DNA from: Candidatus Gastranaerophilales bacterium
Lineage (GTDB): Bacteria; Cyanobacteriota; Vampirovibrionia; Gastranaerophilales; Gastranaerophilaceae
DNA: 64,000 bases
NCBI GenBank assembly: GCA_944325105.1
Contig: CALUYW010000002.1
Coordinates: 62,001 to 126,000 of the forward strand
Direction of reading: 5' to 3'
Below the pieces are notes generated by a model, which saw only the letters and a program-made list of their open reading frames with translations, did no database searches and was not told the origin of the DNA. The position numbers and the translations under genes are program-made. Positions 23,874-58,650 of the stretch are shown here, one piece after another. Position 1 is the first letter of the stretch, and each line of letters starts with the position of its first letter.

Positions 23874-26267
23874 ATGCAGGTCATACAAACAATAAACGAC
23901 ACCATAAGGGTTTTATTCAGCCCCTCGGAAGAAGACTTTAAGCTCCTTGATTTTTTATTGGTGCAAGAATCCGGTAACAAATATCTGGCACAAATCATCG
24001 AAATTTATGATGATAAATATGACGCGTCACAAAACGTAGCAAGGGTAAAATTATTCTTTAAAGTCAACGAGAACGGCGAAGTATTCAGCTATGACCACTT
24101 CACCCCATCCAAGGAATGTGAAATAAATAAACTTAAAAAAGAGGAAATTTTAACTTTCATAAATGAAGGCAAAGAAGCCATAAACATTGGTCTTGACTAC
24201 AAAAGCGAAGAGCCCCTTGACATAAATCTTGATTTTTTAAAAAATAATGCGGTAATTTTCGCTGACAAAATTGACCACTCAAACAATATTTGCGCACATC
24301 TTGCCCATACAATGTCAAGATACAACAAACACAGTGTAGTATTCGACTACACCGGCACTCTTGAAATACAAAATGCAAAAAAATTAAAAGTCACAAAAGA
24401 TATCAAACTGCCTCTGGATTTTTACAGTGTTGAATACATCTGGGAAAAAGGTCTTTCTACTGCAAGCCTTGAAACACAAGCTATTTGCAGAGAAATTTTC
24501 AATGAAGTAAAAACATTTGCAAAAAAAGCTCCTGAGGGTTTTATACCGTTTAATAAATTTTTAAATGTTGTTGAAATACAATACAAAGCCACCCCTATAA
24601 CCGAGCTTACCGTACTTTTAAACAAACTTAAGGCGTATCAAAAAAATAATATATTTGCGAAAAGCAAAAAAGATTTTGAAATAATTGAAAAAACAGTAAA
24701 TGAAAACGATGTAACAATTATAGATTTTTCGGAACTGAAAACAAGTTGGCACAAAGAATTTAGCGAATTTATAATAAGAAATCTTAAAGAAGATATATTT
24801 GTATTTTTAAGATTAAATGAAACAAATACGGATATTGACCTGATTAATTTCATGTATGACAAAAAACCTAAAGTCAGGTTTATTCCGAGTATTTCATACT
24901 CGTTTTCAAAAATGCCTCATATAGTCGAGCGGGCAAAAAATTATATACTTCTTCCTACACTCAACCCCAAGCGCGACTTTGGTGCGGCAAACTTTGAACT
25001 TATGTCTATCGCAAAAGATGAATGTATTTTGTTTGGCGAAGATACTGAAGAGTTTATATTTACAATAAAAAATAACAGGTTTGAAAACAGCTCTCATAGC
25101 GAGCCAAGAGCTCTTAAAAAAACAAGGCTGAAAATTGCAGATTTAGAAATAAAAACCGGCAATACATTAAGGGAAAAACCGAGCGAAGAAATTCAAGAAC
25201 AACCGGAAGAGGCAATGCCTACGGAAGAAGAGCTGGAGTTTTTTGCTCAATTTGAAGAACCTGTTGAGGAAAAGGGAAATACGGAGGAAGAAAAAACTCC
25301 GATAAAAAAGCCTGAGGAAGAGGATATTCCGGCATATTACGATGAGCCTGCACAAAATCCTCAACAAGAAAAATCTTTGATTGAAACAAAAGAGGAAGAA
25401 GCAGTTTCACAAGCACAGGCAGAAAATAATACAGAACCCATAGAACAGGTTGAAGAAAATTTGCCCGAAGAAGAAACGGAACAGTTGCCTCAAGAAACTA
25501 TAGAAGAAACAGTATCGGAAGAAATTCAGCAAGAACCCGAAGTGCAAAAACCTCAAATGCCTGAGGGTGTGATAATTGAAGAAGCAGACACCGAGCAGGA
25601 GCTTGTTTTGGAGGAAGAAATCGCGGAGCAAACAGAGCCAGAAGAAGTATATCAACAGGTTGAAAACCTTGAAACTTTACCGATTATTGAAGAAGCCAAT
25701 GAAACACAAGAGCCCGCTTTGGATACGGAAGAGCAAAATGTCATAATCGAGCAAAATGAAAAACAGCCCGAAGAGAATTCTGACGAGCAAGTTCCAGCAG
25801 ACAATAAATTTCAAAACATTCTTGAAGAAACACAAGAAGATGAACCCCTTCAAGAAAGTCAGGACGATTCTCTTTCCCTTGAAACGCTTGCGCAACAGTC
25901 AATTGAGGCAGCGTTTAGTGAAGTTATGGATAACGAAGAGGAAGAAAAATCCGACTCAAAAGAACAAAACGATAATTCAAACTCACTTGTAATAGACAAC
26001 AATGTGGTTATAGATTTAGAAAAAATTAAAGACCAGATTGATACTAAAAACGGCAGCGAGTTGCCTATTTTTAAAAACAAAGCCGAAGTTAAAGAAAAAG
26101 AAGTTTTTAATACCGGTGATAAAATCGAGCATGATAAATACGGCAAAGGCGAAGTTGTAAAAGTAATCACTTACGCTAACCGTTCACTGTTACAAATCAA
26201 CTTTGAAGAAGTTGGCAAGAGACTTCTTGACCCTGATATTGCAAACATTAAAAAAGCAGATAAATAA
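23874..26267 (+). CDS. HerA-like protein lacking Walker A, with acidic linker and PcrA/UvrD-type C-terminal domain
   Basis: 797 residues, three parts. (1) Residues about 1-105 are a beta-rich domain (IRVLFSPSEEDFKLLDFLLVQ, YLAQIIEIYDDKY, ARVKLFFKV) similar in layout to the HAS-barrel that opens HerA/FtsK-type ATPases. (2) Residues about 115-425 follow the order of a HerA ATPase, but the P-loop position reads NAVIFADKIDHSNN with no GKT/S. VTIIDFSELK stands where Walker B would be. (3) Residues about 435-740 are a disordered Glu/Pro/Gln-rich linker, ending in a small domain (FNTGDKIEHDKYGKGEVVKVI...INFEEVGKRLLDPDIANIKKA) that resembles the C-terminal RNA-polymerase-contact domain of PcrA/UvrD helicases. 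The C-terminal match is clearer than the HerA one. Function unknown. Confidence 0.5.
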   Translation: MQVIQTINDTIRVLFSPSEEDFKLLDFLLVQESGNKYLAQIIEIYDDKYDASQNVARVKLFFKVNENGEVFSYDHFTPSKECEINKLKKEEILTFINEGKEAINIGLDYKSEEPLDINLDFLKNNAVIFADKIDHSNNICAHLAHTMSRYNKHSVVFDYTGTLEIQNAKKLKVTKDIKLPLDFYSVEYIWEKGLSTASLETQAICREIFNEVKTFAKKAPEGFIPFNKFLNVVEIQYKATPITELTVLLNKLKAYQKNNIFAKSKKDFEIIEKTVNENDVTIIDFSELKTSWHKEFSEFIIRNLKEDIFVFLRLNETNTDIDLINFMYDKKPKVRFIPSISYSFSKMPHIVERAKNYILLPTLNPKRDFGAANFELMSIAKDECILFGEDTEEFIFTIKNNRFENSSHSEPRALKKTRLKIADLEIKTGNTLREKPSEEIQEQPEEAMPTEEELEFFAQFEEPVEEKGNTEEEKTPIKKPEEEDIPAYYDEPAQNPQQEKSLIETKEEEAVSQAQAENNTEPIEQVEENLPEEETEQLPQETIEETVSEEIQQEPEVQKPQMPEGVIIEEADTEQELVLEEEIAEQTEPEEVYQQVENLETLPIIEEANETQEPALDTEEQNVIIEQNEKQPEENSDEQVPADNKFQNILEETQEDEPLQESQDDSLSLETLAQQSIEAAFSEVMDNEEEEKSDSKEQNDNSNSLVIDNNVVIDLEKIKDQIDTKNGSELPIFKNKAEVKEKEVFNTGDKIEHDKYGKGEVVKVITYANRSLLQINFEEVGKRLLDPDIANIKKADK

Positions 26268-26268
26268 A

Positions 26269-27180
26269 CTACTTCATAAATTCATTTAAGTCTATAAATT
26301 CTACCGCTTCTTCTATGGTGTCAAAGACATGTATTATGTTGTTTAAAAATACATAGTTAAGGGCTCTTTTTACATCCTCGCAAGGCTTTACAAGGATAAA
26401 TAAACCGTCCTTCTGCGATGTAGTCTTATAAACATCTGCAAAAATACTTGCATACCTGTCGGAAAAAATCTTTATATGCTCAAGATTAAATATTATGTTC
26501 GGTTTGCCTGTCAGAACATTTGTATTGGCTTCTTTTAAAATTCTATCAAGGTATTTTTCGTTATTTATCTTATAAATTGTCATTACACAAATATTTTCAT
26601 TAATGTAATACTTGTGAAATTCTTCATTTACCGTTTTATTTGTAGAGTTGGAAATAAACTTCAAAATACCCTCATGCCATTGAGGCTGCTTAGGTATAAA
26701 CTCGTCAACACCATACTTATAGCACTCTTGAATCATCTTAGTGTCGTCCGTGCCTGATATTACAATGAGTTTAAAGTCTTTCTCCTCTTCGGATTTAATC
26801 TTATTTGCTTCACTTATAAGCTCAAAACCGTCTTTCGCATCGGGCAAGAAAAGGTCAATTATAAGATAATCTATTTTTTTCTTTTTAAGCTCTGTTAGTG
26901 CTTCTTCTTTGTTGCGAGCAACATAAACATTAACGCCAATTTTTTTCAACATGGAAGTAAGCTGATAAATGGAAAGTTCCATATCATCAACTATAAGTAC
27001 ATTTATATTTTCAGCAGTGAAAAAACTTAAAGGGTAGTTAAAAAAGTTCAACTTCCTCTCAAGTGCAATGAGTGCTCTTGAAACCGTTTCCCCTGCCTGA
27101 ATTTCAGGGTTTACATCTATCCCGGATAATTTAACCAAGTTTAAATACTGGTCATATGTCAATTTTATTTCATCTTCCAT
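26269..27180 (-). CDS. Response-regulator receiver with C-terminal STAS-like domain
   Basis: 303 residues. After a 58-residue helical lead, a receiver domain runs from about 60 to 185: acidic pair D65-D66 (VLIVDDMEL), phospho-acceptor D109 (YLIIDLFLPD), the ISGT switch residue, and the conserved Lys (FIPKQP). The rest (about 190-303, ICVMTIYKINNEKYLDRILKEANT ... FNLEHIKIFSDRYASIFADVYK) has the strand-helix order of a STAS/anti-anti-sigma domain. Such proteins usually pass a phospho-signal to a partner-switching module rather than to DNA. No kinase or sigma regulator is adjacent. Its stop is one base from that of the converging HerA-like gene. Confidence 0.75.
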   Translation of the reverse strand: MEDEIKLTYDQYLNLVKLSGIDVNPEIQAGETVSRALIALERKLNFFNYPLSFFTAENINVLIVDDMELSIYQLTSMLKKIGVNVYVARNKEEALTELKKKKIDYLIIDLFLPDAKDGFELISEANKIKSEEEKDFKLIVISGTDDTKMIQECYKYGVDEFIPKQPQWHEGILKFISNSTNKTVNEEFHKYYINENICVMTIYKINNEKYLDRILKEANTNVLTGKPNIIFNLEHIKIFSDRYASIFADVYKTTSQKDGLFILVKPCEDVKRALNYVFLNNIIHVFDTIEEAVEFIDLNEFMK

Positions 27181-49696: not shown

Positions 49697-52600
49697 CTAT
49701 TCAATTGTAAAATCAGGAGCTCCAAACATACCTTCAATTTCTTCTAATATTGCAGAAGGCTTTCTTGCTTGGTTTTTCTGTTGAGCACGTCTTAGGGCTT
49801 CTTTTTCCTTTTCTTCATTTGCGTTAATCAAATGATAGTAGCCTGTACCTGCAGGAATTAAACGACCGATAATGACGTTTTCTTTAAGACCTCTTAACAG
49901 GTCTTTTTTACCTTCAACAGCAGCTTCTGTAAGGATTCTTGTTGTTTCTTGGAAAGAAGCGGCAGAAATGAAGCTTTCAGTATTCAAAGATGCCTTTGTG
50001 ATACCAAGTAAAAGTGCCTCATATGTTGCTTTTTCACCGCCTTGTTTTTCAACTTCAGCGTTTTGAGCTTCAATTTCCTTAAGTTCAACAAGTTCACCGG
50101 GAAGAAGTTTTGTTGTACCTGAGTCAACGACTCTGACTTTCTTAATCATCTGACGTACAATAACTTCAACGTGTTTATCAGCAATTTCAACACCTTGAGA
50201 ACGATATACTCTTTGTACTTCATCTACAAGATATTGTTGAGCAGCGTTTGCGCCTCTTAGTCTGATAACGTCATGAGGGTTTAGCGGCCCTGAAGTCAGC
50301 GCCTGACCTTTAACGATTTTTTGTTTATCCATAACAATTACGTTAGATTCGATAGGATATTTAATCTCGGTTCTGCCGTTTTCGTTTACAATAAACAATC
50401 TTGCAACGTCATCTTCGTATTCAATTTCAGCTACACCGTCTTCTTCTGCAACAATAGCGCAGTCTTTAGGTTTTCTTGCTTCAAGAAGTTCTTCAACACG
50501 AGGAAGACCTTGAACGATGTCACCTGTTTTTTGTCTTTCAAATACAAGTGTTGCAAGCAAATCGCCTCTTAGGATGAGTGCTGAGTTATCAACCTGTAAA
50601 AGTGTACCGGGGCTTATCAAGTGAGGTCTGCCTATTCTTACGGTTACTGATTTTGGTGTAACTTCAACTACTCTACCCGAGCAAGTAGATTTTTCGCCTG
50701 ATGAAGAAATAACCGCATCAAGTTTTACAAACTCGCCAACCTTAACGGTAGCTTTTGATTTGATGTCGATTTTTCTTTCATAAGTATCAGATACAAGAAG
50801 TAATCTTCTTAACTCTTTATCTGTTTGCTTAATGCTTGCAATTGAGTCATTAACCGAGAGAACTTGAGTTTTTGTAACAGGAGTTCTCGGTTCGATTATT
50901 TGTCCGTTTTCTACAAGAAGCTCTGTTTGAGTAGAAGATAACATTCTTGAGCCTTCTTCTTGTTCACGACGAACAATCAGAGTTTCAAGAACAACAATCT
51001 TCAAGCTGCCATTTTTATCAAGTTCAACAAGACCTTTTAAGTGGCTTAAGTAGCCGCCCATTGAAAGAACTAATGAAGTCCTTGTAAGAACGGCGCCGTC
51101 AAGGTTACGAACTCTTGCACCGTCTTTGAATTGTAATTGAGTCAAAGGAACAATTTCAATTGAGTCATCTGTTGTATCAAACTCAATAGAAACATCTTTC
51201 GGTTTAATTTCAAATCTTTGAATAGGTCTTATAAGTATCTGAATTGATTTGTTTTCAATGTTGTCATCTTCAACGATATCTTCTGTTATCTCTTCGTCCA
51301 AATCATCAATTTCAAGAACATCAGACTCGTTTTCAACAATAGTAACAATTGAATCAGCTTTTGCTTTAATGCCTGCCGCAACGATTGTACCGGCTTTAAC
51401 AACTTCACCCTCGTCAACTTTTAAGTCGTTAATTGAATCAAGTGTATGAAGTTCACCGGGACGGATAACAACTTCGTGAATAATGTCGTTAAATTCTTTA
51501 ATTTCAACAATACCGTCAATGTGAGTATAGAGGTCTTTTACAACTTCGGTACCCGCTTCAACATACGTACCTGATTCAACAAGTTTTAGAGATGAATCTT
51601 TTGAAATTTGATGAATTTCCTCAGGTATAAATATCGCTTCACCTGCTTTTGTTACCACTTGATTTTCATCAACTTCAACGCCGTTGTAGCGAATTTCACC
51701 TGAAGATTCAACTTTGTGTTCTTCATCTACAAGCTCGGCTATTATCATGCCGTTTTCAACCGTTGTATCAACGGGGGATTTAACAATGTATTTTTCGCCT
51801 GTTTTATCAACTGTCCAAAATTGTTCTTTTTTAGTTTGTTCAAAAGTAGCGTTTGAAGGTTGAATTGAAGCAATAACGATAGTAAGTTCTTTACCTGCAA
51901 CTATCTTTTTAATCTTCTTGCCGTCAAATTTAACTTCTTCAACTTCCAAAGAATTGCCTACTCTAACTTCACCGCCATGTTCAGAAACAATCAATGTTTC
52001 AGCGAGTTTTTCGCCTTTTTTAATTTTTTGACCGTCTGAAACAAGAACTTTAGAACCTGCAGGAAGTGTGTAAACATCTCCGCCTAAAACCCAAACAATA
52101 CCTGATTTATTTGAAGTTCTTGAGATGTTACCTTGTCTGTCTTTCTTTTCATCAGCTACGAAGTCTTCAAATACAACTTCACCTGAGATATCAGATGTGA
52201 TATCTTTTGTAGCTTTTTCAGTAAGACGAGAACCGTCCCCTTTTGAAGCGGGTTCGTATTCGGCAATTTCTTGACCTTTTTTAACTTCCATTCCTTGAGT
52301 AACGTATATTTTTGCGCCTGAAGGAACGTGAGCTTTTGTAATATTGCCCTTTTTATCTTCGATTTCAATATCAACTTCTTTTATTGCAACTTGTACAACA
52401 TCCCCGTGACGAGTTCTCAATTCACGAGTTTTAACCGCAGTTTTAACGGTACCGTCAACAGGTGACTCAACGTGCTTCATAGCACCTGAACCTTTAAATA
52501 CACCGCCTGTGTGGAATGTTCTCATTGTAAGCTGTGTACCGGGTTCACCGATTGACTGGGCGGCGATAATACCGATTGCTTCACCGATGTCTACAAGTTT

Positions 52601-53548
52601 TTGTGTTGTCATTGCCCAACCGTAGCATTTTTGGCAAATACCGTACTCAAGTTCGCAAGTAAGAGTTGAGCGAACATCAACCTCTTTAAGTTTTAGTTCT
52701 TTAATTTTTGCCAAATCTTCACGGTTAACGGTTGTATTTTTAGTAACGATTACATTACCGTCTTTATCTAAAATATCTTGCGCTACAGTTCTGCCCAAAA
52801 GTCTGTCTTCAAGAGGAACAATTACCTCATCACCATCCATGATAGCCGTTAATTTGATTGATTTATTTGTATGGCAGTCTTCTTCACGAATAATAACATC
52901 TTGAGCTACGTCAACCAAACGACGAGTCAGGTAACCTGAGTCAGCAGTTTTAAGTGCCGTATCTACAAGACCTTTACGAGCGCCGTAAGATGAGATAATG
53001 TATTCTGTAACAGACAAACCTTCTTTAAAGTTTGATTTAATAGGCAAGTCGATAATCTGACCTTGTGCGTCTGCCATCAAACCACGCATACCAACAAGCT
53101 GAGATACCTGAGATAAGTTACCTCTCGCGCCTGAGAATGCCATCATATAAACAGGGTTTAATCTGTCAAAGTTTTCAACTACCTGTTCTGTAAGTTTTGC
53201 AGTTGTTTCAGACCAAGTGTCGATAACTTTTGTATATCTTTCAACCTCTGTAATTTCGCCTTTCATATAGCGGTAAGTTGACTCTTCAATTTGATTTTGA
53301 GCTTCTTCCAAGAGCTGTTGTTTAACTTTAGGAACGCTCAAGTCATGAATTGAAATAGTTGTACCTGCTTTTGTTGCATATTTAAAACCTAAGTTCTTAA
53401 GGTTGTTTGCAAGTTCGGCAGTCTTAGCACCGCCCCACTCAAGATAAATTTGAGAGAGGAGTTTTCTTAAGCCGCCTTTATCAACTATTCTGTTAATAAA
53501 TTCAACAGTATGTTTTTTCTTTTTACTCTGCGGAGTTAACGTAGTCAT
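49697..53548 (-). CDS. rpoC2: RNA polymerase beta'' subunit (RpoC2), split-rpoC type
   Basis: 1283 residues. It corresponds to the C-terminal part of RpoC: zinc-site cysteines 225, 298, 305, 308; the bridge/trigger region GEAIGIIAAQSIGEPGTQLTMRTFHTGG (about 321-349). From about 360 to about 1005 runs an insertion made of several beta-rich sandwich-barrel domains (repeated SPVDGTV-, GEVVKAG-type segments), as in cyanobacterial SI3. The trigger-loop end and the rest of the C-terminus follow (GDIVQGLPRVEELLEARKPKDC, about 1008-1030). Thirty-eight bases after rpoC1, with its own ATG. Confidence 0.97.
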   Translation of the reverse strand: MTTLTPQSKKKKHTVEFINRIVDKGGLRKLLSQIYLEWGGAKTAELANNLKNLGFKYATKAGTTISIHDLSVPKVKQQLLEEAQNQIEESTYRYMKGEITEVERYTKVIDTWSETTAKLTEQVVENFDRLNPVYMMAFSGARGNLSQVSQLVGMRGLMADAQGQIIDLPIKSNFKEGLSVTEYIISSYGARKGLVDTALKTADSGYLTRRLVDVAQDVIIREEDCHTNKSIKLTAIMDGDEVIVPLEDRLLGRTVAQDILDKDGNVIVTKNTTVNREDLAKIKELKLKEVDVRSTLTCELEYGICQKCYGWAMTTQKLVDIGEAIGIIAAQSIGEPGTQLTMRTFHTGGVFKGSGAMKHVESPVDGTVKTAVKTRELRTRHGDVVQVAIKEVDIEIEDKKGNITKAHVPSGAKIYVTQGMEVKKGQEIAEYEPASKGDGSRLTEKATKDITSDISGEVVFEDFVADEKKDRQGNISRTSNKSGIVWVLGGDVYTLPAGSKVLVSDGQKIKKGEKLAETLIVSEHGGEVRVGNSLEVEEVKFDGKKIKKIVAGKELTIVIASIQPSNATFEQTKKEQFWTVDKTGEKYIVKSPVDTTVENGMIIAELVDEEHKVESSGEIRYNGVEVDENQVVTKAGEAIFIPEEIHQISKDSSLKLVESGTYVEAGTEVVKDLYTHIDGIVEIKEFNDIIHEVVIRPGELHTLDSINDLKVDEGEVVKAGTIVAAGIKAKADSIVTIVENESDVLEIDDLDEEITEDIVEDDNIENKSIQILIRPIQRFEIKPKDVSIEFDTTDDSIEIVPLTQLQFKDGARVRNLDGAVLTRTSLVLSMGGYLSHLKGLVELDKNGSLKIVVLETLIVRREQEEGSRMLSSTQTELLVENGQIIEPRTPVTKTQVLSVNDSIASIKQTDKELRRLLLVSDTYERKIDIKSKATVKVGEFVKLDAVISSSGEKSTCSGRVVEVTPKSVTVRIGRPHLISPGTLLQVDNSALILRGDLLATLVFERQKTGDIVQGLPRVEELLEARKPKDCAIVAEEDGVAEIEYEDDVARLFIVNENGRTEIKYPIESNVIVMDKQKIVKGQALTSGPLNPHDVIRLRGANAAQQYLVDEVQRVYRSQGVEIADKHVEVIVRQMIKKVRVVDSGTTKLLPGELVELKEIEAQNAEVEKQGGEKATYEALLLGITKASLNTESFISAASFQETTRILTEAAVEGKKDLLRGLKENVIIGRLIPAGTGYYHLINANEEKEKEALRRAQQKNQARKPSAILEEIEGMFGAPDFTIE

Positions 53549-53586
53549 ATTTTATTGTTTCCTCATCATTTTTAATTACATTTACA

Positions 53587-55299
53587 TTAAGCAAGAATTG
53601 ATTTACGAACTACTTCGTTAAATACGATTCTGCCCGGTGTGGTTTCTATTCTCTTTCCTTCATCATCTCTTACAACAATTTTGTCATGAAGCTTAACAAT
53701 TCCGGATTCAAGAGCGGAAATTGCATCCATGTAATCATGGAAATAGCCTTTTACGGGAGCGTTTTCGTCTTTTAGAATTGTCAGATAGTAAATACCTAAT
53801 ACCATATCTTGAGATGGTGTAATGATAGGTTTACCAGTAGCAGGAGCAAGAATATTGTTTGTAGCAAGCATTAACATTCTGGCTTCAGCTTGAGCTTCAA
53901 TTGAAAGCGGTACATGAACAGCCATTTGGTCACCGTCGAAGTCGGCGTTAAACGCTGTACATACAAGCGGGTGAAGCTGAATAGCACGACCTTCTACAAG
54001 AATAGGTTCAAATGCTTGAATACCGAGTCTGTGAAGGGTGGGGGCACGGTTTAACATTACTGGGTGACCGTCAACCACTTCTTCCAATATATCCCATACG
54101 ATGGGCTCTGAACGCTCGATTTTCTTCTTAGCAGATTTAATGTTTTGAACCAAACCGCGTTCGATTAATTTATTAACAACAAAAGGTTTAAACAATTCAA
54201 TTGCCATTTCTTTAGGCAAACCGCATTGGTTTAAGCTCAACTGAGGACCTACAACGATAACCGAACGGCCTGAGTAGTCAACACGTTTACCCAATAGGTT
54301 TTGTCTGAAACGACCTTGTTTACCTTCGATAATATTTGATAAAGATTTAAGAGGTCTTGAGTTAGGCCCCACAACCGTTCTACCGCGTCTGCCATTATCA
54401 ATTAGAGCGTCAACCGCTTCTTGCAGCATACGTTTTTCGTTACGTACGATAATTTCGGGAGCACCCATTTCAAGCAGTCTTAAAAGACGGTTGTTACGGT
54501 TGATAACACGTCTGTATAAGTCGTTTAAGTCAGATGTTGCAAAACGTCCGCCGTCTAATTGCACCATAGGACGCAAGTCCGGAGGAGTTATGGGAAGAAC
54601 ATCCATAATAAACCAAGTGGGCTCAGTTCCTGATTCAATTAAAGATTCAACAAGTCTTAATCTTTTGATTAACTTTGCTCTCTTTTGAACAGAACCGCCT
54701 GCAGCGTCAAGCTCGGAGCGAATTTCTTCAGCAAGTTCGGTGAGTTTTATTTCAGATAAAAGGTCTTTAATAACCTCAGCACCGATACCTACTTTAAGAG
54801 TAGAATCTTCATTTTCAAGAATGTAGTCTTCATATTCTTCTTCAGATAGAAGTTGGAACTTTTTAAAGGGGCTTTCGCCGCCGTCAACTACAACATAGTT
54901 GTTGAAATAAATGATTTGTTCCAAATCTTTTAAAGTCATATCGAGAAGTAAGCCAAGGTATGAGGGGATACCTTTTAAGAACCATATGTGAGATACGGGT
55001 GCTGCGAGCTTGATGTGACCCATACGGTGACGACGCACTTTAGAGTCTGTAACTTCTACACCGCAGCGTTCGCATATGATACCTTTGTGGCGTACTCTTT
55101 TATATTTACCGCAATAACATTCCCAGTCTTTTGAAGGTCCAAAGATTCTTTCGCAAAACAGACCGTCACGTTCGGGTTTTAATGTACGGTAGTTAATTGT
55201 TTCAGGTTTTGTAACCTCGCCGTAAGACCATTTCAATATGCGCTCGGGAGAGGCAATTGAAATTCTTATATAATCGAAATAATCAATACTAGTAGACAA
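53587..55299 (-). CDS. rpoC1: RNA polymerase gamma subunit (RpoC1), split-rpoC type
   Basis: 570 residues; the N-terminal part of beta'. The clamp zinc ribbon is [20 protein letters not shown] (about 62-81). RPPxL-type rim [28 protein letters not shown] and the catalytic [14 protein letters not shown] (three Asp binding Mg2+) are present. It ends shortly after the beginning of the funnel region, at a real stop (38 nt before rpoC2), as in cyanobacteria; there is no remnant of a joined frame. Slightly shorter than the about 620 residues usual in Cyanobacteria. Confidence 0.97.
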
Positions 55300-55335: not shown

Positions 55336-58300
55336 TTAGTCTTTAAAACTTGTCGGAGTTTCAAAGAAGTTGATGTTGAGAAGTTCACTGTCCATATCGG
55401 ATAGAACTCTCTTAGGTGCTGATTTTCTTAAATCATCAGTATCTGACATCAAGTCGACCTCTTCGCCGCCTTTTTTAGAAACAGCGATATCTAAGCCGAT
55501 ACTTTGAAGTTCGCGAACAAGAACTTTAAATGACTCGGGAATACCCGGACGAGGTATATTATCACCTTTAACGATAGCCTCATAAGCGCGGCTTCTTCCG
55601 TTAACATCATCTGATTTGATTGTTAACATTTCTTGAAGAGTATAAGCTGCACCATAAGCTTCAAGTGCCCAAACTTCCATTTCGCCGAATCTTTGACCAC
55701 CGAACTGTGCTTTACCACCCAGAGGCTGTTGAGTAACAAGTGAATAAGGACCTGTTGAGCGAGCGTGAATTTTATCGTCAACAAGGTGAACAAGTTTCAA
55801 TATATATGAAAGACCAACGGCAACAGGTTCATCAAACGGCTCGCCCGTTCTACCGTCGTAAAGTGTAACTTTACCGTCTTCTCTAACCCAATCGCAGCCT
55901 GATTCTTTAATACCTTTAAGAAGTTCTTCTTTGGTTGCAATTTCAGACTGGTTAGGTCCGTACATTTCATCAAATGACGGAGCTTCGTAGTAGTTTCCTG
56001 TCAGGTATGCAGCCAAACCTAAAAGTAATTCGTAAGTTTGACCTACGTTCATACGAGAAGGAACACCCAGCGGGTTAAGAACGATATCAAGCGGAGTACC
56101 GTCAGGCAAGAAAGGCATATCTTCTTTAGGTAATATTCTTGAAACAATACCTTTGTTACCGTGGCGACCTGATAATTTATCACCGACTGAGATTTTACGT
56201 TTTTGCGCAATATAAACACGAATTACGGTATTAGCACCGGGTGGAAGTTCATCTCCCTTTTCTCTGTCAAATACTTTAACGTCGACTACCCTACCGCCTT
56301 CGCCGTGAGGAACGCGAAGAGAATTGTCTTTAACGTCACGTGCCTTTTCGGCAAATATCGCACGAAGAAGTTTTTCTTCCGGAGGATGTTCAGATTCGCC
56401 CTTAGGTGTAATCTTGCCAACCAAAATATCGTCAGCATAAACTCTTGCACCGATTCTAACGATACCGCGCTCATCCAAGTGTCTGATTGAATCTTCAGAT
56501 ACGTTAGGAACTTCACGGGTAATTTCTTCAGGGCCGAGTTTTGTCTGACGTGCGTCTATTTCAAGTTTTTCTATGTGAACTGATGTAAATACATCGTCAT
56601 GAACAAGTCTTTCGCTCAATAAGATAGCATCCTCGAAGTTATAACCTTCCCAAGGCATATAAGCAACAAGAACATTTTTACCAAGTGCCAATTCACCTTG
56701 GTGAGTAGAAGCACCGTCTGCTATTACATCGCCTGCTTTAACCTTATCGCCTGCGCGAACTATAGGTCTTTGGTTAATACAAGTGTCTTGGTTTGAACGA
56801 ACGTATTTTAGTAAAGGATATTGGTAAATCTTGCCGTCATCACCTTTGATGTGGACTTCTTCACCAACAACTCTTATAACTTCACCGTCTACTTCAGAAC
56901 AAGTTACCATGCAAGAGTCTTTTGCTGCACGTTTTTCAAGACCTGTACCTACAACGGGGCGTTGAGTAACAAGAAGAGGAACAGCTTGACGTTGCATGTT
57001 TGAACCCATTAGTGCACGGTTAGCATCATCGTGCTCAATAAACGGTATCAAAGAAGTAGCAACTGATATTATCTGAATCGGGCAAACACCAACATAGTCG
57101 ACTTTTTTAGATTCACCCATTGTAAATTCAGACCTGTAACGAACGGGAACATATTCTTCTTTTATGCTTCTGTCAGGATTTAATTGAATATCAGCAGGTG
57201 CTACACGATAGTTTTCATCTTCATCTGCCGTTAAGTAGTGAACTTCATCAGTTACAACACCGTCTTTTACAACAAAGAAAGGTGTTTCGATAAAACCATA
57301 GTCGTTAACACGAGCATGTGTTGCAAGTGAACCGATAAGACCTGCGTTAGGACCTTCAGGAGTTTCAACCGGACAAATACGACCATAGTGAGAAGGGTGA
57401 ATGTCACGAACCGCAAAACCTGCACGTTCTCTCATCAGACCGCCGGGGCCAAGAGCTGAGATACGTCTTTTGTGAGTAAGTTCAGCAAGCGGGTTTGTTT
57501 GGTCCATAAACTGTGATAACTGTGAAGAACCAAAGAATTCTTTTAAAGATGCCACAAGGGGCTTAGTATTTAAAAGGTTCAAAGGTGTAAGAGTTTCACT
57601 GTCTTGCAGTGTCATTCTTTCTTTAACTATTCTTTCAATTCTTGATAAACCTACTCTGAATTGGTTTTGCAACAATTCGCCAACCGAGCGGATACGACGG
57701 TTGCCCAAATGGTCAATATCATCAAGAACACCTTCATCGTATGTAAGGTTAATTAAGTATTCAATACCTGCAACGATATCTTGAACAGTGATTGTTCTTT
57801 GTGTTTCAGGCAGGTTAAGACCCAGTTTTTTGTTTAATTTGTAACGGCCAACCTTACCGATGTCATATTTTTTCTCATCAAAGAAACGAGCTTCTAAAAT
57901 TGAGCGGCCGCCTGCAGCTGATGCAGGGTCACCGGGACGAAGTTTTTTATAAACTTCGATAAGCGCTTCATCTGTTGAGTTTGTTGTATCTTTTTCAAGA
58001 GTTTTCTTTAAGAATTCAAAGTGAGTAAATAAAGTTTCCATCTCAACAGGTGTGATACCCAACGCTTTAAGCAATGTTGTAGCAAGGATTTTTCTGTTTT
58101 TGTCGATTTTAACGTACACAAGGTCGTTAGAATCTGTTTCAATCTTCATCCAAGCACCGCGGTTAGGAATTAATGTAGCGTTGTAAAGACGTTTACCTGT
58201 GGGAGAAACTTCTTTTTTATAATAAATACCGGGAGAACGAACGATTTGAGAAACGATAACACGTTCCGCACCGTTTACAATGAATGTACCTTTATCGGTC

Positions 58301-58650
58301 ATTGTAGGAATGTCACCAATGTAGACTTCCTGTTCTTTAATTTCCCCGCTATCACGGTTAACAAGACGCATCATAACACGCAATTGCTTAGCGTAAGTAG
58401 CGTCATGAATACGAGCTTCTTCTATTGTATATTTGGGGTTATCAAATGTGTAATTAGGTAAGAAATGCAGCTCAAGTCTGCCTGTGTAGTCTTTAATAGG
58501 CGAAAAAGAAAGGAACTCTTCCTTTAAACCTTCTTTTAAAAACCACTCAAACGACTTTTTCTGAATTTCAATCAAGTCGGGTAAATCCTTAAGGCGTGTT
58601 TCGGGTATGCCCATAGGAGTAACTCGGTTCGCATATTTTGTTGTTGACAT
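55336..58650 (-). CDS. rpoB: RNA polymerase beta subunit
   Basis: 1104 residues, close to the cyanobacterial size and lacking the large insertions of E. coli RpoB. Recognisable: [33 protein letters not shown] (rifampicin region), [64 protein letters not shown], and [30 protein letters not shown] near the end. First gene of rpoB-rpoC1-rpoC2; rplJ/rplL are not upstream. SD AGAGG lies 8 nt before the ATG. Confidence 0.98.

Follow-up and report, generated by a model that had tools for sequence, protein, structure and literature searches.

The order Gastranaerophilales carries, as a core gene, a HerA-like pseudo-ATPase that is joined through a long acidic linker to a Tudor domain of the PcrA/UvrD type. 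In the window (the whole stretch of 64,000 nucleotides analysed here) the protein is encoded by one open reading frame of 797 amino acids (Table 1), which we call pseudo-HerA, and the gene is present in one copy in the 1.76 Mb Gastranaerophilales host genome. The preliminary description of this frame had named a HerA-type layout, the absence of GKT/S at the P-loop position, an acidic linker some 300 residues long and a C-terminal domain of the PcrA/UvrD type, and all of these held up. The full-length protein matched 58 of 58 sampled relatives from 37 genera, a count that includes a few relatives (e.g., the outgroup G057) in which the match is to the Tudor part of PcrA alone. With a 37-row profile of the N-terminal domain (N-domain), 143 of the 240 genomes in the class and 130 of the 292 in the phylum gave matches, every one of which falls within the Gastranaerophilales. 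One member of the family, G143, was without pseudo-HerA in that search. Across the Gastranaerophilales, pseudo-HerA is a core gene with one copy per genome, found in nearly every genome of the order. The gene is under strong purifying selection, with a dN/dS of about 0.07 for the N-domain (against the nearest orthologue, closest genus relatives) and 0.035 for the C-terminal domain (against the nearest orthologue). An assembly error as the source of the fusion was considered and rejected, because the fusion of HerA and Tudor parts recurs across dozens of independent genomes. We did not find a description of the protein in the open literature searched. The HerA body and the PcrA Tudor domain are each of a known kind; their combination, the complete loss of catalytic residues and the fixation across an order were not found described there.

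The relationship to HerA is carried by the family. The protein of the window, taken alone, falls below the cut-off for the HerA central domain (PF01935, E = 0.23); thus, the relationship is invisible from a single sequence. PF01935 was above the cut-off on orthologues in a six-frame search (E = 2.9e-10 and 3.3e-9) and was detected at E ≤ 1 in 16 of the 37 family members (best 2.2e-9). A 37-sequence profile of residues 1-419 matched the Sulfolobus HerA structure 4d2i (E = 2.7e-7), and the alignment covers both the P-loop position and the next strand, FDYHGEY. An hhalign comparison of the family with HerA of a sister family and Cyanobacteria stayed in register across 318 columns (E = 5.7e-4 as a single comparison, probability 29%). 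The same kind of comparison gave a weak match to a second group of HerA-like proteins in the phylum, A5 (E = 0.044). An AlphaFold model of the N-domain, built from a 14-sequence alignment, was itself weak (pLDDT 58); its best Foldseek match was 4d2i (E = 5.7e-9, TM 0.30), and among the matches listed all are of the HerA type so far as they are described, with SIR2-HerA and DUF4297-HerA structures near the top. The strands modelled in residues 1-90 (E2-7, E10-15, E27-32, E35-46, E54-64, E70-72 and E83-86) are of low confidence. From these comparisons together, we consider the homology of the N-domain to HerA to be established and its HerA fold to be putative.

Table 1. Positions in the window of pseudo-HerA, its parts and the rpoB gene of the same genome.
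Feature	Residues	Position	Strand	Basis
Whole gene (797 aa): HerA-like pseudo-ATPase, acidic linker and PcrA/UvrD Tudor domain	1-797	23874..26267	+	Open frame, single copy, orthologues
HAS-barrel-like N-terminal beta domain	1-90	23874..24143	+	Low-confidence AF2 strands; position as in HerA; invariant Q40
HerA/DUF87-type RecA-like core without catalytic residues	~100-403	24171..25082	+	4d2i; PF01935 on orthologues; hhalign
Walker A place: FADKIDHSNNI, not GxTGSGKS	129-139	24258..24290	+	Alignment to HerA AGTGSGKS; column make-up
VFDYTGTL, counterpart of HerA VFDPHGEY; Asp158 invariant	156-163	24339..24362	+	Alignments
Walker B place: LRLNETN, not LLEEAHR	312-318	24807..24827	+	hhalign register
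Places of the HerA QRP motif and Arg-finger strand (ISYSFSKMP ... LLPTLNP); QRP and Arg not kept		24891..24968	+	Family alignment; hhalign
Disordered-type acidic linker	426-729	25149..26060	+	Net charge; composition in orthologues
LPIF ([LIV]P[IV][YF]) before the Tudor domain	730-733	26061..26072	+	Conserved motif
PcrA/UvrD-type Tudor domain; H753, Y756, R783 and L785 at partner-binding positions	748-794	26115..26255	+	PF21196
rpoB (supposed docking partner); beta lobe lacks the hairpin that docks PcrA		55336..58650	-	TIGR02013; no strict motif

The Walker A motif GxxxxGK[ST] is missing from all 89 orthologous N-terminal sequences, some of which are redundant. It is intact in all 15 HerA-type proteins that were fetched from sister families and Cyanobacteria, and EEAH is retained in the HerA of the phylum. 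Judging from the alignments, the ATP-binding motifs of the HerA family are lost in pseudo-HerA. An active but unconventional ATPase with a remodelled nucleotide site would be in keeping with the invariant Asp158 and with a Lys near the old P-loop place in part of the order (the column is K in 20 of 89 sequences). However, at the aligned positions nothing is left of the Gly-rich loop, GK[ST], the acidic pair of Walker B, QRP or the Arg finger, and the FADKIDHSNN-like residues at the P-loop position differ between lineages, so that we regard this alternative as very improbable. Nor is pseudo-HerA the silent half of a mixed ring with an active HerA, since its own genome has no active HerA: a PF01935 search of that genome gave no match, and 14 of 14 control genomes were positive. 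NurA (PF09376) was not found in the same genome and was absent in 28 of 29 relatives, the set giving one marginal partial match, with controls positive in 7. Pseudo-HerA is thus like the HerA DNA translocase (4d2i, PF01935, HerA-NurA) in having a HAS-barrel-like domain followed by a RecA-like core, with the strand and helix landmarks in register. Unlike the translocase, it is without Walker A, Walker B, QRP and Arg finger, and its core is shorter; unlike the HerA-NurA systems, it has a long acidic tail with a Tudor domain, in a genome without NurA.

Residues 426-735, 310 amino acids that include 82 Glu, have a net charge of -80. In full-length orthologues the linker ranges from 88 to 569 amino acids, mostly with 25-38% Asp+Glu. 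Within this otherwise fast-changing acidic sequence, an LPIF-type motif lies about 15-20 residues ahead of the Tudor domain. A loose form of the motif, [LIVMGT]P[IVLE][YFV], is present in 63 of 68 distinct sequences, and the Pro is invariant in the A3 alignment. The conservation of [LIV]P[IV][YF] before the Tudor domain suggests that the motif is a further contact. Such a contact could belong to another arrangement, in which HerA function persists without ATP hydrolysis: the HerA body would serve as a structural part of a larger nucleoprotein assembly for chromosome segregation, recombination or replication, and the Tudor domain would bind another protein. The core status of the gene across the order, the long variable tether and this second conserved motif near the Tudor domain would suit such an assembly, but no partner gene is linked and the Tudor surface is specifically of the PcrA type. 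We consider the assembly rather unlikely.

The C-terminal domain matched PF21196 (PcrA_UvrD_tudor) with an E-value of 1.9e-7 and 31.3 bits against a cut-off of 23.9. The family profile matched UvrD/PcrA C-terminal domain (CTD) structures in the PDB (best E = 3.2e-8), and the domain aligns without gaps to the CTD of E. coli UvrD. A structure model of the C-terminal 97 residues, made from 3 sequences, had a pLDDT of 38. Pfam identified no SF1 helicase motor domain in the protein, and the NCBIfam match is limited to residues 734-793. In PcrA, mutation of H681, W684, K712 and L714 (G. stearothermophilus numbering) weakens the pull-down of RNA polymerase (RNAP) and UvrB (PMC5397179). The corresponding residues of pseudo-HerA, read via the UvrD alignment, are H753, Y756, R783 and L785, and they are conserved or conservatively changed; the position of the critical K712 is an Arg. 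The domain is therefore like the PcrA/UvrD CTD (PF21196; 5DMA, 6yi2, 7egs, 9dqs) in its score and its partner-binding residues, and as in PcrA it stands behind a long disordered-type linker. It differs from PcrA/UvrD in that no SF1 helicase is attached, in being of the GKRLLDP type and in the Arg for the critical Lys. The GKRLLDP type resembles PcrA of a sister family (G057, VGKRLLDPNIAKL), and the order's own PcrA reads GIKAVDA or GKKAMDA at this place. This pattern fits the view that the domain was captured from an ancestral PcrA, after which the PcrA of the order itself diverged. Elsewhere in the host genome, two contigs (C26:10982-11101 and C27:8103-8222) each have a frame of 849 aa, and the PcrA Tudor domains of the two frames score equally. 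The pair reflects either a duplication of pcrA or a duplicate in the assembly.

The Tudor domain of Bacillus PcrA binds a TGE hairpin of the RNAP beta lobe, and the same motif, [VIL]DxxTGE, recruits PcrA to UvrB (PMC8318588). The docking hairpin was absent from the RpoB lobe in 10 of 10 genomes examined. RpoB of the host genome has [TS]GE sites in just two segments, one of which is DGRTGEPF. Of 9 genomes, 6 have the exact docking motif in UvrB and 2 others have a near match; the motif in the host's own UvrB is IDSVTGEVL. A DNA-pattern scan of the host genome for the strict motif returned 4 sites (control hits 0). One is UvrB and the other three lie in frames for transpeptidase-like, pyruvate-phosphate-dikinase-like and acyl-CoA-synthetase-like proteins. 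Since RpoB lacks the hairpin while UvrB has the motif, UvrB, not RNAP, is expected to be the chief partner of the Tudor domain. The dikinase-like protein keeps LDGGTGEVM in six genomes (L215, L222, L226, L227, L238 and L239); this docking-type motif, though conserved, is probably coincidental.

The preliminary description had instead tethered the protein to the polymerase. In that account, the Tudor domain holds a non-hydrolysing HerA-like ring on RNAP, where the ring would be a passive scaffold linked to transcription. In Bacillus the beta subunit of RNAP is indeed bound by the PcrA/UvrD Tudor domain (PMC8318588; PMC5397179), and pseudo-HerA largely retains the contact residues. With the PcrA-type hairpin missing from the beta lobe, however, tethering by the known PcrA route is unlikely, and this part of the earlier proposal was not borne out. 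The beta1 strand of RpoB, VNRD[ST]GEIKEQ, the region where the Tudor folds of Mfd and CarD dock, is intact, and pseudo-HerA might contact RNAP through this or some other surface. Also against the tether, no competition between PcrA and Mfd for RNAP is reported (PMC8318588). A scaffold on RNAP seems to us improbable. Beside rpoB, the largest RNAP subunit appears to be split into two genes of 570 aa and 1283 aa (window positions 49697-55299, minus strand), which resemble rpoC1/rpoC2 of photosynthetic Cyanobacteria.

A comparison of 37 loci identified no gene neighbour of pseudo-HerA that is conserved across the order. The pair nadD-yqeK is upstream in 9 of the 37 loci, and a glycosyltransferase, a response regulator-STAS gene, a phosphoglucomutase and a TPR gene are common beside pseudo-HerA only near the genus level. 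In the window, a gene at 26269-27180 on the minus strand, convergent with pseudo-HerA, encodes a response-regulator receiver with a C-terminal STAS-like domain and ends 1 base past the pseudo-HerA stop codon.

HerA domains have repeatedly been captured in defence systems (PMC10853773). Two genomes of the order (G046 and G036) have a HerA with an intact GNTGSGKS beside a SIR2-like gene (L139 and L140), and these are probable SIR2-HerA defence pairs, separate from pseudo-HerA. Both points could be taken to mean that pseudo-HerA is what remains of a HerA element, defensive or mobile, and has no role in the cell. We find this extremely improbable and it was already disfavoured: all of the sampled relatives are matched (a few by the Tudor part of PcrA alone), the N-domain dN/dS is low, PADLOC gave no match for pseudo-HerA as a defence gene, and the SIR2-linked HerAs are separate genes with an intact Walker A. 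The SIR2-HerA and DUF4297-HerA complexes (8wld, 8sub, 8ziq, 9c1m) are comparable in that a HerA-fold platform holds another protein, as we propose for pseudo-HerA. They bind ATP, are linked to defence and have adjoining effector genes, whereas pseudo-HerA lacks both a P-loop and an adjoining gene of this kind. The proteins termed "HerA-FtsK capture", DndH among them, likewise have a HerA/FtsK domain joined to unrelated domains; these belong to defence systems, and no PcrA Tudor domain is described in the available part of the source (PMC10853773).

The explanation that we favour, tentatively and as a single joint claim that stops short of probable, is that pseudo-HerA is a HerA-family pseudo-ATPase scaffold whose captured PcrA/UvrD Tudor domain, on its acidic tether, docks UvrB-type partners. 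The HerA-fold body would act as a scaffold or ring that does not translocate and may sit on DNA, and the HAS-barrel end might hold a partner, in the way that HerA holds NurA, SIR2 or DUF4297. At the end of the charged tether, the Tudor domain would catch proteins with a docking hairpin, UvrB first. Nucleotide-excision repair factors could in this way be concentrated, or the protein might compete with PcrA for them. Several points speak against this explanation. The UvrB motif may serve PcrA alone, no conserved neighbour gene links pseudo-HerA to repair, and K712 of PcrA is replaced by Arg. The N-domain is also net acidic, with a mean of -2.6 per 100 residues, although active HerAs are nearly as acidic. 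A more specific version is doubtful, namely an order-specific, passive, DNA-linked HerA repair hub that would gather UvrB (or RNAP) without the use of ATP and compete with PcrA for the docking hairpin.

If the favoured explanation is right, the partner of pseudo-HerA is directly testable with single-residue mutants, because the binding code of the docking domain is already known. Pseudo-HerA would then be a core-genome example of a ring motor turned into a non-motor scaffold. It would also suggest that Tudor domains of the PcrA type are adaptors that can move between proteins, with UvrB as their main partner wherever the RNAP of a lineage is without the docking hairpin.
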